Assembly: GCA_031292735.1 (NCBI GenBank)
Contig: JARLGP010000114.1
Location: 1-5,203, forward strand
From: Holophaga sp.
Lineage (GTDB): Bacteria > Acidobacteriota > Holophagae > Holophagales > Holophagaceae
DNA length: 5,203 nt
Direction: 5' to 3'
Part shown: piece after piece, positions 2,100-5,203 of the stretch
How the letters are laid out: each line of letters opens with the position of its first letter
Position numbering within the stretch: the first letter of the stretch is position 1
Program-made: the position numbers and the translations under genes
The notes under the pieces: model-generated
What the model saw: only the letters and a program-made list of their open reading frames with translations
Told to the model about the DNA's origin: nothing
The model's database searches: none

Positions 2100-3005
2100 A
2101 TGGATCTCGCAGAGCTGGAAGTACTCATAAGCCTCGCCCAGGAAGGAAGCTTTTCCCGAGCGGCCGAGAGCCTGCACCGCTCCCAGCCGGCCGTGAGCCA
2201 GGCGATCCGCCGCCTGGAGGACGAGGTCCAAACCCAACTCATGGACCGCACCTCCCGGAAGGTCATCCTCACCGGAGCCGGAACCATCCTGCTCGGCTAC
2301 GCCAAGCGCATGGTCCAGCTGCGGGAGGATGCCGGGCGGGCGCTGGACGAGCTGCGCTGCTTCAAGCGGGGCGTGCTGCGCCTGGCGGCCAACGAAAGCG
2401 TCTGCAGCTACGTGCTGCCGCCCCTGTTGAAGGCCTTCCGGCAGCGGCTGCCGGCGGTGAAGATCGAAGTGCTCCAGTGCCCCTCCAACGGCATCTCCAC
2501 GCTGCTGGACGAGCAGGACGTGGACTTCGGCTTCCTGTCCTTCACCCCGGTGCAGCACGACCTGATCTCCCGGCTGCTGTTCCGCGACGAGCTGGCCCTG
2601 GTGGTCTACCCCGGGCATCCCCTGGCCCGGTCCAAGTCGGTGATCCTGCACCAGCTGGGCAACGAGAAATTCGTCGCCCACCGGGCCGAGACCCCGGGCC
2701 GGAAACGGCTGGTGGACCTGTTCGCCCGGGAAGGGGTGCCGCTGGGCATCGTCATGGAGCTGTCCAGCCTGGAGACCATCAAGGATTTCGTCAAGGGCGG
2801 CGACGGCATCGCCATCCTGCCGCGCATGTGCCTCTCCCGGGAACTGGAGGCGGGCGAACTGTGCTCGCCGCCGGTGCGGGGCCTGTCCATCGGCCGGGAC
2901 ATCCGGGTGGTGTATCCCAGAACCCGCACCCATTCCCCCGCGGCCGTGGCCTTCCTGGGCCTGCTCGAACGGCATTTCCCCACCCAGGAGCAGGCCGAGG
3001 CTTGA
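2100..3005 (+). CDS. LysR-family transcriptional regulator, target unknown
   Basis: This is a 301-residue protein of normal length for LysR-type regulators. Residues about 3-62 are the winged helix-turn-helix: LEVLISLAQEGSFSRAAESLHRSQPAVSQAIRRLE carries the hallmark A-A-x-x-L-x-x-S-Q-P-A-V-S-x-x-I-x-x-LE pattern, followed by the wing and RTSRKVILTGAG. A linker helix (about 63-88) leads to a periplasmic-binding-protein-like effector domain from about 89 to 290, including GDGIAILPRMCL typical of its second lobe. No transmembrane or signal segment is seen, so it is a cytoplasmic DNA-binding protein. It follows ilvC on the same strand, and its TGA stop overlaps the -35 box of the promoter for the aromatic fusion gene. 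E. coli IlvY is also a LysR protein beside ilvC but is transcribed divergently. Whether this one controls ilv genes, the aromatic gene or something distant cannot be read from the sequence. Confidence 0.93.
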   Translation: MDLAELEVLISLAQEGSFSRAAESLHRSQPAVSQAIRRLEDEVQTQLMDRTSRKVILTGAGTILLGYAKRMVQLREDAGRALDELRCFKRGVLRLAANESVCSYVLPPLLKAFRQRLPAVKIEVLQCPSNGISTLLDEQDVDFGFLSFTPVQHDLISRLLFRDELALVVYPGHPLARSKSVILHQLGNEKFVAHRAETPGRKRLVDLFAREGVPLGIVMELSSLETIKDFVKGGDGIAILPRMCLSRELEAGELCSPPVRGLSIGRDIRVVYPRTRTHSPAAVAFLGLLERHFPTQEQAEA

Positions 3006-3030
3006 CCGGCCCGGCCCGGCGGGCTATACT
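3002..3030 (+). promoter_or_regulatory. Near-consensus sigma70 promoter for the leader and aromatic fusion gene
   Basis: TTGACC (3002-3007) and TATACT (3025-3030) are separated by exactly 17 nt, each differing from consensus by one base. The spacer is very GC-rich, so these AT-containing boxes stand out. The predicted transcription start is near 3037, just ahead of an AGAGG ribosome binding site and a short Phe-rich ORF, as in classical amino-acid attenuators. The -35 box overlaps the lysR stop codon (3003-3005). No mapping data are available, so the assignment rests on box match, spacing and context. Confidence 0.8.
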
Positions 3031-3036
3031 TAGCCC
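3021..3036 (+). repeat. 6-bp inverted repeat around the -10 box
   Basis: GGGCTA (3021-3026) and TAGCCC (3031-3036) are perfect inverted copies around a 4-nt loop that is the 3' end of the -10 hexamer. It could be an operator half-site pair, a weak transcript-end hairpin for lysR (there is no T-run after it), or chance. Confidence 0.4.
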
Positions 3037-3048
3037 TTCAGAGGTTCC

Positions 3049-3129
3049 ATGTCCAGCTTCACGTTCACCTATGCCTTCGCCTACCGCTTTTTTACCGGCG
3101 GTGGACTGGTCGTGGTGGAAACGTGCTGA
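3049..3129 (+). CDS. Phe/Tyr-rich leader peptide (pheL-like), 26 residues
   Basis: This short ORF starts at ATG 3049 with AGAGG (3040-3044) 4 nt upstream and ends at TGA 3127-3129. Phe occurs at residues 4, 6, 10, 14 and 15 and Tyr at 8 and 12, so seven of the first 15 residues are aromatic. The tandem Phe codons 14-15 (3088-3093) are both TTT, which is rare in the neighbouring genes. The second half (GGGLVVVETC) has no aromatic residues. Placed right after a strong promoter and 100 nt before a gene for phenylalanine synthesis, it is best read as an attenuation leader in which the ribosome senses charged tRNA-Phe and possibly tRNA-Tyr. It shows no sequence identity to enteric PheL beyond this composition; the role is inferred. 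The peptide itself is unlikely to have a function. Confidence 0.8.
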   Translation: MSSFTFTYAFAYRFFTGGGLVVVETC

Positions 3130-3152
3130 GCAAGGCCTGAAGCATCCCACCA
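3113..3152 (+). promoter_or_regulatory. Leader RNA stem A, overlapping the leader ORF stop
   Basis: TGGTGG (3113-3118) pairs perfectly with CCACCA (3147-3152). Inside it GTGCT (3123-3127) can pair with AGCAT (3141-3145) including one G-U. The leader stop codon lies within the stem-loop, so a ribosome finishing the leader peptide would open it, while one stalled at the tandem Phe codons would leave it free to form. This is the expected behaviour of a segment-2 element, inferred from geometry only. Confidence 0.5.
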
Positions 3153-3156
3153 ACCC

Positions 3157-3178
3157 GTCCGCCACATCCCTGGCGGGC
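3157..3178 (+). promoter_or_regulatory. Leader RNA stem B
   Basis: GTCCGCCA (3157-3164) and TGGCGGGC (3171-3178) form an 8-bp stem with one G-U around a 6-nt loop CATCCC. It resembles a terminator hairpin but is followed only by AGGTTTCCC, with a run of three T, so intrinsic termination would be weak. Its 5' arm can alternatively pair with GGTGGAC (3100-3106) inside the leader ORF. Confidence 0.5.
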
Positions 3179-3195
3179 AGGTTTCCCAAAAGACC

Positions 3196-3222
3196 CTCCA
3201 GGAACGGCGGCCAACCCTGGAG
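3196..3222 (+). promoter_or_regulatory. Shine-Dalgarno-sequestering hairpin (stem C) of the fusion gene
   Basis: CTCCAGG (3196-3202) and CCTGGAG (3216-3222) form a perfect 7-bp stem with a 13-nt loop. The 3' arm contains GGAG (3219-3222), the only good ribosome binding site for the ATG at 3229, 6 nt away. Folding would therefore hide that site. The 5' part of the stem (CCCTCC, 3194-3199) can pair with the 3' arm of stem B (GGCGGG, 3172-3177, one mismatch), a possible anti-sequestering alternative. Seen in sequence as complementarity; the regulatory effect is inferred. Confidence 0.6.
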
Positions 3223-3228
3223 CAGTCC

Positions 3229-5203
3229 ATGGCAGTCAAACCCATCTCCGATCCGCTCGATCCCTTCCGCAAGGAGATCGATGAGGCGGATCGACAATTG
3301 ATCCAGATCCTGGCCCGCCGGTTCAACGCCGTGAAGCGGGTGGGATCCCGGAAGCAGGCGGAAGCGGACCAGCCCCTGCTGGACACCGAACGGGAACGGC
3401 AGATCCAGGCCAGCTGGGTGCAGGACGCCGAGGCCATGGGCCTGTCGGCGCCGTTCGCCCGCCGGGTGCTCAAGGAGATCCTCAACCATTCCCGGCGCCT
3501 GCAGGAGGCGCTGATCGAGAACCGGCAGGGGCCGGGCCGGCGGATCCGCTGCGGCTACCAGGGCCAGGCGGGCTCCTACAGCGCCCTGGCCGCCTCGCAC
3601 CTGCTGGCCCACCGGGGCACCGCGGAAACCGGGCTGCAGGGTTTCGAAACCTTCCAGGAGGTGGGCAAGGCCCTGCTGGACGGCGAGGTGGACTACGGCC
3701 TGCTGCCGGTGGAGAACAGCATCGGCGGCAGCATCGCCGACGTGAACCGGCTCATCTGCGACCACGCCCTGCACATCGTGGACGAGGAAGTCTGGCAGGT
3801 GGAGCACGTGCTGGCAGTGCCGCCCGGGGTGGAGCTGGCCGACCTGAAGGCGATCCGCAGCCACCCGGCCGCCCTCACCCAGTGCGAGACCTTCCTGTCC
3901 AGCCTGGAGGAGGTGCGCCGCGAGCCCTGGAGCGACACCGCCACCGCCGCCGCCTCGCTCCAGGAGGGCCCGGCCCGGGACCGCCGGGACACCGGCGCCA
4001 TCTGCTCGGAGGAGGCGGCCAATCTGTTCGGCCTGGACGTGATCAATCGCAGCCTGGCGGACCGGGAGTGCAACGAGACCCGGTTCCTGCTGCTGGCCCG
4101 GGAGCCGGAAATGCCCGACCAGCGGCTGTCCTGCAAGACCTCCATGCTGTTCCGGGTGAACCACCACGAAGGCGCCCTGGTGCGCGCCCTGGAAGTGTTC
4201 GCCCAGGCCAAGGTCAACCTCTCCCGGATCGAAAGCCGGCCCCAGCCGGACATGCCCTGGGAATACCTGTTCTTCGTGGACGTGGAGGGGCACATGGAGG
4301 CGCCCAACCTGGCCGGCGCCCTGCTCAAGCTCCGCTCCTGCTGCACCCACCTGCGCCTGCTGGGCAGCTACCCGTCGCGCACCCACAAACAGGACAGCCA
4401 CCTGGACCTGCCCCTCGCCCCGGCCCCGGCGGCGCCCCTGTGCGTGCGGGAACCGGCACCCGCGCCCGAACGCTCCGGGCGCGCCCGCTCCACCATCCAG
4501 ATCGGCCCGGTGATCCTGGGCGAAGGGCACTTCGTGCTGATCTCCGGCCCCTGCGCGGTGGAAAGCCTGGAGCAGATCGTGGACGCGGCGCGCATGGTGC
4601 GGGCCAGCGGCGCCACCCTGCTCCGGGGCGGCGCGTTCAAGCCGCGCACCTCGCCGCACGCCTTCCAGGGCCTGGGCATGGAGGGCCTGCGCTACCTGCG
4701 CGAGGCCGGCCGGCAGTTCGAGCTGCCCACGGTCACCGAGGTGCTCACCATCGAGGACATCCCGGCGGTGGTGGCCCACGCCGACGTGCTCCAGGTGGGC
4801 GCCCGGAACATGCACAACTTCGCCCTGCTCAAGGAGCTGGGCCGGGTGGACAAGCCGGTCATCCTCAAGCGCGGCATGAGCGCCACCATCAAGGAGCTGC
4901 TGCTGGCGGCGGAGTACCTGCTGAATGGCGGCAACCTGCAGGTGATCCTGTGCGAGCGCGGCATCCGCACCTTCGAGACCAGCACTCGCGCCACCCTGGA
5001 CGTGAGCTCGGTGCCGGTGCTCAAGCGCCTCACCCACCTTCCCATCATCGTCGACCCCTCCGACGCCGCCGGCGACCGGGAGCTGGTGATCCCCCTGGCC
5101 CTGGCGGCCGCCGCGGCCGGCGCCGACGGGCTGATCGTGGAGGCCCACCCCAGGCCCCAGGAAGCCCTGTGCGACAAGGAACAGGCGCTCAATGCCGACG
5201 ACC
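3229..5203 (+). CDS. pheA: Fused chorismate mutase / prephenate dehydratase / ACT / DAHP synthase (3' truncated by window)
   Basis: An open frame of 658 complete codons continues past the window end. Residues about 8-97 are AroQ chorismate mutase; all eight E. coli active-site residues have counterparts (Arg14, Arg31, Lys42, Asp52, Arg55, Glu56, Ser88, Gln92). Residues about 106-290 are prephenate dehydratase (GSYS, PVENS 160-164, SHP 211-213, DTATAAA 236-242, catalytic Thr284-Arg285-Phe286). An ACT domain (about 300-382) has both Phe-binding motifs, GALV 315-318 and ESRP 335-338. A Pro/Ala-rich linker (about 384-422) leads to a type I-beta DAHP synthase barrel (GPCAVE 440-445, RGGAFKPRTSP 466-476, VGARNM 523-528, KRGM 547-550). 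This lacks the usual N-terminal ferredoxin-like domain. Expected metal ligands are Cys442, Glu638 and Asp649, but the fourth, normally His, is Asp612. Only about 25-30 residues should be missing if the barrel ends as usual. The start has GGAG 6 nt upstream, and no other ATG, GTG or TTG lies in frame back to the leader stop. It would make DAHP from PEP and erythrose 4-phosphate, and phenylpyruvate from chorismate, under Phe feedback. Confidence 0.93.
   Translation, partial: MAVKPISDPLDPFRKEIDEADRQLIQILARRFNAVKRVGSRKQAEADQPLLDTERERQIQASWVQDAEAMGLSAPFARRVLKEILNHSRRLQEALIENRQGPGRRIRCGYQGQAGSYSALAASHLLAHRGTAETGLQGFETFQEVGKALLDGEVDYGLLPVENSIGGSIADVNRLICDHALHIVDEEVWQVEHVLAVPPGVELADLKAIRSHPAALTQCETFLSSLEEVRREPWSDTATAAASLQEGPARDRRDTGAICSEEAANLFGLDVINRSLADRECNETRFLLLAREPEMPDQRLSCKTSMLFRVNHHEGALVRALEVFAQAKVNLSRIESRPQPDMPWEYLFFVDVEGHMEAPNLAGALLKLRSCCTHLRLLGSYPSRTHKQDSHLDLPLAPAPAAPLCVREPAPAPERSGRARSTIQIGPVILGEGHFVLISGPCAVESLEQIVDAARMVRASGATLLRGGAFKPRTSPHAFQGLGMEGLRYLREAGRQFELPTVTEVLTIEDIPAVVAHADVLQVGARNMHNFALLKELGRVDKPVILKRGMSATIKELLLAAEYLLNGGNLQVILCERGIRTFETSTRATLDVSSVPVLKRLTHLPIIVDPSDAAGDRELVIPLALAAAAAGADGLIVEAHPRPQEALCDKEQALNADD

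Follow-up and report, generated by a model that had tools for sequence, protein, structure and literature searches.

The window, by which we mean the whole 5,203-nt stretch of DNA analysed, carries an aromatic-rich leader ORF and competing RNA stems immediately ahead of a CM-PDT-DAHP synthase fusion gene, and we consider it highly probable (roughly 0.85) that these elements constitute a ribosome-mediated leader-peptide attenuator tuned to charged tRNA-Phe and charged tRNA-Tyr. The window contains, in order, the end of ilvB, ilvN, ilvC, a gene for a LysR-type regulator (2100-3005) and, from 3229, the fusion gene. The regulator gene sits between ilvC and the attenuator, and its stop codon is overlapped by the −35 box of the leader promoter. 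As predicted, the downstream gene is one for phenylalanine synthesis that also carries a DAHP synthase: Pfam identifies CM_2, PDT, ACT and DAHP_synth_1 regions in a frame that runs off the window (3229..5202, + strand), the ACT match (26.8 bits) lying just below its cut-off of 27. The closest relative among the sequences found, at 85% identity, is a MAG labelled Holophagaceae (L001), and the window is Holophagaceae DNA (class Holophagae, phylum Acidobacteriota). A search of Rfam with the window and 12 related loci gave no curated-family match to a T-box or amino-acid riboswitch, a sub-threshold sul1 match within ilvN (511-567; 23.4 bits vs. a gathering threshold of 36.2), most likely due to chance, being set aside; the Rfam Phe leader families gave no match at cut-offs of E 1 in the window and E 0.1 in the 12 related loci.

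The elements proposed for the start of the transcript are present in the window. The sigma70-like promoter, predicted to have 17-nt spacing, lies at 3002..3030 (+ strand; −35 TTGACC, 17 nt, −10 TATACT) and scores 10/12 matches, compared with a mean of 0.0 in 50 shuffles; its boxes are identical in the closest relative (L085). At 8/10 fusion loci the best box pair scores 9-10/12; at the other two, L089 and L092, it scores 8/12, a score reached by 253/500 and 83/500 shuffles, respectively, and at L091 the −10 box ends just 6 nt ahead of the leader ATG. A Shine-Dalgarno-like AGAGG (3040..3044, + strand) precedes the leader ORF, MSSFTFTYAFAYRFFTGGGLVVVETC, of 26 aa (3049..3129, + strand; ATG at 3049, stop codon at 3127-3129), which has Phe at codons 4, 6, 10, 14 and 15 and Tyr at codons 8 and 12, with TTT TTT as codons 14-15. 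The promoter, the ribosome-binding site and the ORF with its five Phe and two Tyr codons within 15 codons are where the original prediction placed them. Among all ORFs of 8-60 aa on both strands of the window, this one, with seven, is alone in having four or more Phe or Tyr codons within 15; when 3000-3228 was dinucleotide-shuffled 3000 times, the highest count in any ORF was five in 0.2% of shuffles, six in 0.03% and seven in none. We conclude that the aromatic richness of the leader is not due to chance. Length-limited ORF lists skip such leaders, and regulation of this kind is therefore easily overlooked in annotated genomes.

The leader is conserved at orthologous fusion genes. Using the CM-PDT part as query against 77 Holophagaceae genomes, we found nine close orthologues, in all of which the DAHP synthase follows in frame as far as the contigs reach (in G070 the gene is cut by the contig end). 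Absence of an aromatic-rich ORF upstream of orthologues had been named as an outcome that would count against the proposal; an aromatic-rich leader of 23-34 codons is present at 9/9 family orthologues, 187-247 nt ahead of the matched region (for example, MTTTTFSFTYAYRYFIGGG.. in L085, MHSCLITFAFTYAYRRYFGGGGG.. in L089, MTAHSATFTFTPAARRYYYGGGGG.. in L087 and MFTATFAFTRAFRRFTRRGRELG in L086). The leader and the competing stems are thus found at 10/10 loci (window plus nine orthologues), and a short putative leader rich in codons for products of the pathway, accounting for 7/15 codons in the window, is what the class of leader-peptide attenuators would exhibit. In a codon-by-codon comparison of the window with L085, 6/7 aromatic positions are still aromatic, three of them with an exchange between Phe and Tyr. 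Across the same ten loci, TTT makes up 16/34 Phe codons in the leaders vs. 9/166 in the downstream fusion genes (8/9 of the latter from one genome, that of L089), and TAT makes up 11/22 Tyr codons in the leaders vs. 7/84 in the fusion genes. The part of the leader beyond the aromatic block is poorly conserved as protein and is shaped by base pairing, its Gly run being region 2 of the antiterminator.

Three stems can be drawn in the leader RNA. Stem 1:2 (3081..3104, + strand) pairs CTACCGCT (3081-3088) with GGCGGTGG (3097-3104) in the predicted fold, its loop holding most of TTT TTT ACC; region 2 of antiterminator 2:3, GGTGGACTGGT (3100..3110, + strand), comprises the Gly-Gly-Leu codons of the leader and pairs with 3153-3163; and the terminator-like hairpin 3:4 (3152..3183, + strand), identified from pairing in the alignment, has arms AACCCGTCCGCCA (3152-3164) and TGGCGGGCAGGTT (3171-3183). 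The predicted mutually exclusive stems therefore exist, but their expected location downstream of the ORF applies only in part, since stem 1:2, at 3081-3104, lies inside it, and region 2 is likewise within coding sequence. We scored conservation of the stems on a ten-sequence alignment (A1; window plus nine orthologues). Hairpin 3:4 is paired in 92.3% of cells and has three pairs changed on both sides, compared with 0.6 in shuffles (3/500 as high), whereas antiterminator 2:3 (80.9% of cells paired) and stem 1:2 (82.5%) have covariation no higher than in shuffles. The upstream alignment that had been proposed as a check thus bears out the aromatic-rich ORF and the covariation of hairpin 3:4, but not covariation of stems 1:2 and 2:3. 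Unusual folding energy is absent for 3037-3260 (z −0.85) and not clear for 3100-3245 (z −1.62).

To represent the position of the ribosome, we deleted the RNA as far as 13 nt beyond where the A-site codon starts, then folded what was left up to arm 4. In the window, before arm 4 is made, the probability that arm 3 is paired with upstream RNA is 0.81 with the ribosome at the last five aromatic codons vs. 0.25 with the ribosome at the last four codons and stop; across the ten loci the corresponding values are 0.72-0.95 with the ribosome at aromatic codons vs. 0.01-0.47 at the leader end, and at all ten loci arm 3 is set free as the simulated ribosome passes over the Gly codons. An equal or larger contrast occurs in 6/100 leader shuffles for the window and in 0, 2, 0, 2, 0, 0, 8, 13 and 11 of 100 for the other nine loci; for eleven unfused pheA leaders simulated in the same manner, 1-23/100 shuffles match the contrast. 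Mutually exclusive antiterminator and terminator stems, with stalling on the control codons predicted by these runs to select the antiterminator before arm 4 is made, are a further feature of the class. Folding of the complete leader at equilibrium was rejected as the switch: with arm 4 included, hairpin 3:4 dominates at all ribosome positions in 7/10 loci, and only the window, L089 and L092 have codons close to the aromatic block at which it drops below 0.5, so that switching at equilibrium is seen in at most 3/10 loci, vs. 10/10 before arm 4. Because hairpin 3:4 dominates at equilibrium in 7/10 loci, the switch would need co-transcriptional kinetics. Timing is essential in known attenuators too.

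According to the reading that we favour, RNA polymerase would start near 3037 and a ribosome would start at 3049. Under a shortage of Phe or Tyr, the ribosome would stall on codons 4-15 and keep stem 1:2 open, region 2 (the Gly codons, 3100-3110) would capture arm 3 (3153-3163), hairpin 3:4 would be blocked, and polymerase would continue into the CM-PDT-DAHP synthase gene. When Phe and Tyr are plentiful, the ribosome would cover region 2 on its way to the stop codon, leaving arm 3 free; hairpin 3:4 would then form, and transcription would stop. We infer use of the promoter, initiation on the leader, stalling, termination and the sensing of two amino acids from the arrangement of these elements. 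Attenuation of the enteric style requires coupling of transcription and translation.

Termination is the least secure step of this reading for the window copy. A pattern scan of 2700-3500 detected no canonical terminator, because the hairpin at 3152-3183 is followed by T CCC (UUUCCC in the RNA) and not by a T run. A run of at least four T (4-7 T) follows the hairpin at 7/10 fusion loci; L089 has none, and L091 has the C-interrupted TCTTCC. The terminator of the window copy looks weak: termination there may be inefficient or may depend on additional factors, or the mode of control may be in the course of changing. Further downstream, folding predicts a hairpin, CTCCAGG/CCTGGAG (3196..3222, + strand), in a position to mask the target gene's ribosome-binding site.

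The leaders of unfused pheA genes provide a comparison for the Tyr codons. A Phe-rich leader, often resembling RFFAFSFRT.GA..GG, is present at 41 of the 44 unfused pheA loci that we read in Holophagaceae (L312, counted among these, was selected with the RNA model and lacks a pheA match); the other three, L323-L325, show no leader with a terminator. A simple terminator pattern like GGGGGTTT is present in 34/41 unfused leaders (11 by alignment plus 23/30). Counted by eye, at least two Tyr codons are present in 8/10 fusion leaders vs. 1/41 unfused leaders, a difference for which p = 6e-7 is not to be taken literally, the sequences being related. In the control block of the unfused leaders, 10/41 have at least one Tyr codon, 31/41 have none, and L264 (G057) alone has two. 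The prediction that one switch senses both end products thus gains from the interchange of Phe and Tyr and from the higher frequency of Tyr in fused leaders, but does not amount to a rule: fusion leaders L086 and L092 have no Tyr codon and are Phe-only, and the unfused leader of G057 has two.

Three competing explanations were weighed. The same sensor could have a translational output in the window copy, with the hairpin at 3196-3222 hiding the ribosome-binding site of the fusion gene and being opened on stalling in the leader. The window, L089 and L091 all lack a good U tract and have a ribosome-binding site that is predicted closed (0.00, 0.09 and 0.00 open), removal of arm 3 opens the site to 0.44 in L085 and to 0.37 in L089, and at L150, a pheA locus of the phylum outside the family, the leader showed no terminator on inspection by eye but a perfect 9-bp stem over its presumed ribosome-binding site. 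The site is closed, however, also in L085 and L090, both of which have a U tract, and removal of arm 3 leaves it unchanged in L090 and L091. In the window the hairpin is predicted to be closed in both states (0.00 open, and 0.14 on removal of arm 3), so that Shine-Dalgarno masking as a switch is not supported there, and we judge a translational output of the window copy to be improbable. More improbable still is that the ORF encodes a real small protein or arose by chance and that the conserved hairpins belong to an ordinary structured 5′ UTR. The ordinary folding energy of the whole region is what an ordinary 5′ UTR would give, but the presence of the leader at 9/9 orthologues and the 0/3000 shuffles with seven aromatics make chance very unlikely, and a part beyond the aromatic block that is set by base pairing and poorly conserved as protein, together with the use of rare synonymous codons, argues against a functional small protein.

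A more serious competitor, which we nevertheless regard as unlikely, retains attenuation but has it sense Phe only, the Tyr codons being neutral filler, with TAT and TAC fitting the A+U-rich loop of stem 1:2. The Phe-only fusion leaders and the 31/41 unfused leaders with no Tyr codon in the control block are as this explanation would have them; the excess of Tyr in fusion leaders (in related sequences), the preservation of aromatic positions through swaps of Phe and Tyr, and the leader MTPPCTFFYYFGFRTPVRVGGVLR ahead of the class II DAHP synthase gene in G061 are not. The distribution of DAHP synthase genes bears on sensing of both amino acids as well. In each of 11 unfused-pheA genomes the search found one DAHP synthase of the type that the fusion carries. 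In 7/9 fusion genomes a further DAHP synthase lies on the trpE strand, at less than 2 kb from trpE in G001, G003, G068, G069 and G071 and at about 6 kb in G004 and G055; G002 has none, and G070 is not judgeable. Four fusion genomes (G003, G068, G069 and G071) have a third copy elsewhere. This distribution fits a split of DAHP synthase control, one part under a Trp leader and the other under a Phe/Tyr leader; the fit is incomplete and the loci are related, and the third copies lower the odds of the bolder picture that follows. In that picture, to which we give somewhat less than even odds, the Holophagaceae would run much of their amino-acid synthesis by leader-peptide attenuators, with the Phe/Tyr leader governing the DAHP synthase fused to CM-PDT and a Trp leader governing the second copy near trpE, and the Phe/Tyr leader would be a true sensor of either amino acid that gained its Tyr codons where DAHP synthase came under its control.

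Further biosynthetic genes in Holophagaceae have the same layout, with codons matched to the amino acid. When 77 genomes were searched with an RNA model built from the ten fusion leaders (R1), ten matches reached E 1.2e-25 or better: the nine training loci and an additional locus in the genome of the closest relative. The latter (L263; G001:C267:3291-3447; E 1.2e-25) is a second copy of the Phe/Tyr attenuator, with leader MPTFTFTYAYAYRWFTGGGGVMGGALS and a hairpin followed by TTTTTT; it precedes a 65-codon ORF, maybe a gene remnant, and what we take to be an aroD-like gene lies further on. Outside its training set R1 also found the unfused pheA leader in G057 (E 1.7e-5). Seventeen of the 27 R1 matches listed were read: 9 are training loci, 2 are the new loci, 4 are antisense to the terminator at training loci, one, in G056, is a class I DAHP synthase leader, and one, L273 (G072), was rejected as coding sequence. 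An RNA model of eleven unfused pheA leaders (R2) gave 38 loci with E values no higher than 7.5e-27 (27 outside training) and three at 2e-12 to 7e-10; by comparison of positions by eye, 40/41 of these strong loci are directly ahead of a pheA match, the exception being in G029.

Among the weaker R2 matches (69 counted among those listed, 28 read), 26/28 consist of a short ORF with matching amino-acid codons and a GC-rich hairpin ahead of a biosynthetic gene (Pro 10, Asn 7, Ile 5, Thr 2, Phe+Tyr 1, Phe 1); for L274, at a contig end, and L286 the target is not assignable. Eight target genes were named by NCBIfam and the others by eye, and codon enrichment, likewise judged by eye, is slight in L271 and L281. 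Pro-bearing leaders with a GC-rich hairpin precede proC or proB at L265-L268, L278-L280, L283, L290 and L293 (L278, L279 and L293 by NCBIfam); Asn-bearing leaders (e.g. RPNRNPNPNPRANRVW) with a hairpin precede asnB-like genes at L269-L271, L277, L282, L285 and L289 (L277 by NCBIfam); Ile-bearing leaders precede ilvA-like genes at L281, L284, L287, L288 and L291; and the Thr-bearing leader MTTTTTGTHPGAGTA precedes aspartokinase genes at L272 and L292. We know of no Asn leader that has been described, and a search of the literature listed none. Two free-standing DAHP synthase genes have leaders of their own: a class II gene in G061 (L275; 611.3 bits, just under the NCBIfam cut-off of 614.7), whose leader is the Phe+Tyr one given above, and a class I gene in G056 (L276; leader MKRPSFTFAFTHPLPAEGR, Phe).

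Filters for short ORFs upstream of other genes gave mixed results. Upstream of trpE-like genes (L231-L242), none of which passed the TIGR00564 cut-off, the Trp filter responded at 12/12 loci (reverse strand, 5/12) with a terminator pattern at 11/12; examples are STWNWSWWPQGSG.. and AWWWRTGSDG.., and the case for Trp leaders rests on the conserved WNW..WWPQGSG and AWWWR motifs. The His filter responded ahead of hisG in 6/14 genomes and on the reverse strand in none. At these six loci (L205-L210; G002, G068, G003, G071, G070 and G069) two His-rich leaders stand in series, each with its own GC-rich hairpin, as in L208, where MTFIVIHHPHFHAFTGG.. is followed by MNLHLHHHAHPPLPG (in L206 and L207 the second leader was recognized by eye). 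The second hairpin is followed by at least four T in 6/6 and the first by only 2-3 T in 5/6. In the other 8/14 genomes the filter found no hisG leader, and in those read (L197, L199 and L200) coding sequence extends up to hisG. The mgtCBR leader of Salmonella also has leader-peptide attenuators in tandem, which respond to two different signals, ATP and proline (PMC3641672); the hisG leaders are in series like those of mgtCBR, but both are His-rich. Ahead of ilvB the branched-chain filter responded at 6/13 loci, two of which (L160 and L161) were accepted by eye with a terminator. A leader was found at 0/10 loci of the second, CM-less PDT paralogue (L093, L095, L098, L100-L103, L106, L109 and L110), where coding sequence abuts the gene. 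Neither tyrA nor leuA gave a leader: the filter responded at 0/12 tyrA loci and at 2/12 leuA loci, neither of the latter being convincing.

Outside the family, we selected 40 pheA upstream regions from matches in a 297-genome sample of the phylum. The aromatic-ORF filter responded at 10/40 on the forward strand and at 6/40 on the reverse strand and, because the reverse strand also responds, means little by itself. Judged by eye, Phe leaders with a clear hairpin and T run are convincing at 3/40 loci (L131, L135 and L137) and doubtful at L120 and L150; L121 was rejected as unconserved, and the remaining responses were not accepted as leaders. At 10/40 loci the frames, of 661-708 aa, are long enough for the same fusion, and a convincing leader is present at 0/10 of these, the doubtful L120 alone being leader-like. 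With leaders at 3/40 outside loci and at 0/10 long frames, the switch is no constant companion of such genes.

In the parts of Naville and Gautheret 2010 available to us, premature terminators are predicted in bulk in acidobacteria, almost none with an associated function, and the authors state that to their knowledge no leader-peptide system had been reported beyond Proteobacteria and Actinobacteria before their case in Firmicutes (PMC2965389). The putative attenuator in the window shares its phylum with those predictions, from which it differs in that almost all of them are without an associated function. The accessible portion of another study gives the distance from leader gene to structural gene, Acidobacteria included, as statistics (PMC4833913), and the portions of two more name no acidobacterial leader-peptide attenuator (PMC2864571, PMC3766115). 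Within the open-access literature in PubMed Central, to the extent that its text was seen, we found no description of a leader-peptide attenuator in Acidobacteria.

The window thus most probably holds a switch of a classic type in a setting new for it, in which Phe and Tyr are unusually paired and the terminator of the window copy is uncertain. Its significance is that it would place attenuation of the enteric style in Acidobacteriota, for which the literature searched gave no described case, and that the correspondence between leader codons and downstream enzyme (largely Phe alone at unfused pheA, largely Phe plus Tyr at the fusion) offers a natural series on how the input of an attenuator changes as its target gains a function. 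The pheA (pheL) attenuator of E. coli has a Phe-rich leader ORF, stems 1:2, 2:3 and 3:4, and a prephenate dehydratase gene downstream. The window is like it in all of these respects and unlike it in mixing Phe and Tyr codons, in having a stem 2 made of Gly codons, in having a target fused to DAHP synthase and in belonging to another phylum; it has no covariance-model match to Phe_leader, which we take to be the Rfam family for the E. coli pheA leader. In enterobacteria, the leaders of the ilv and thr operons combine, in one leader, codons for more than one end product, and the window resembles them in its multi-product codons and differs from them in the amino acids concerned.
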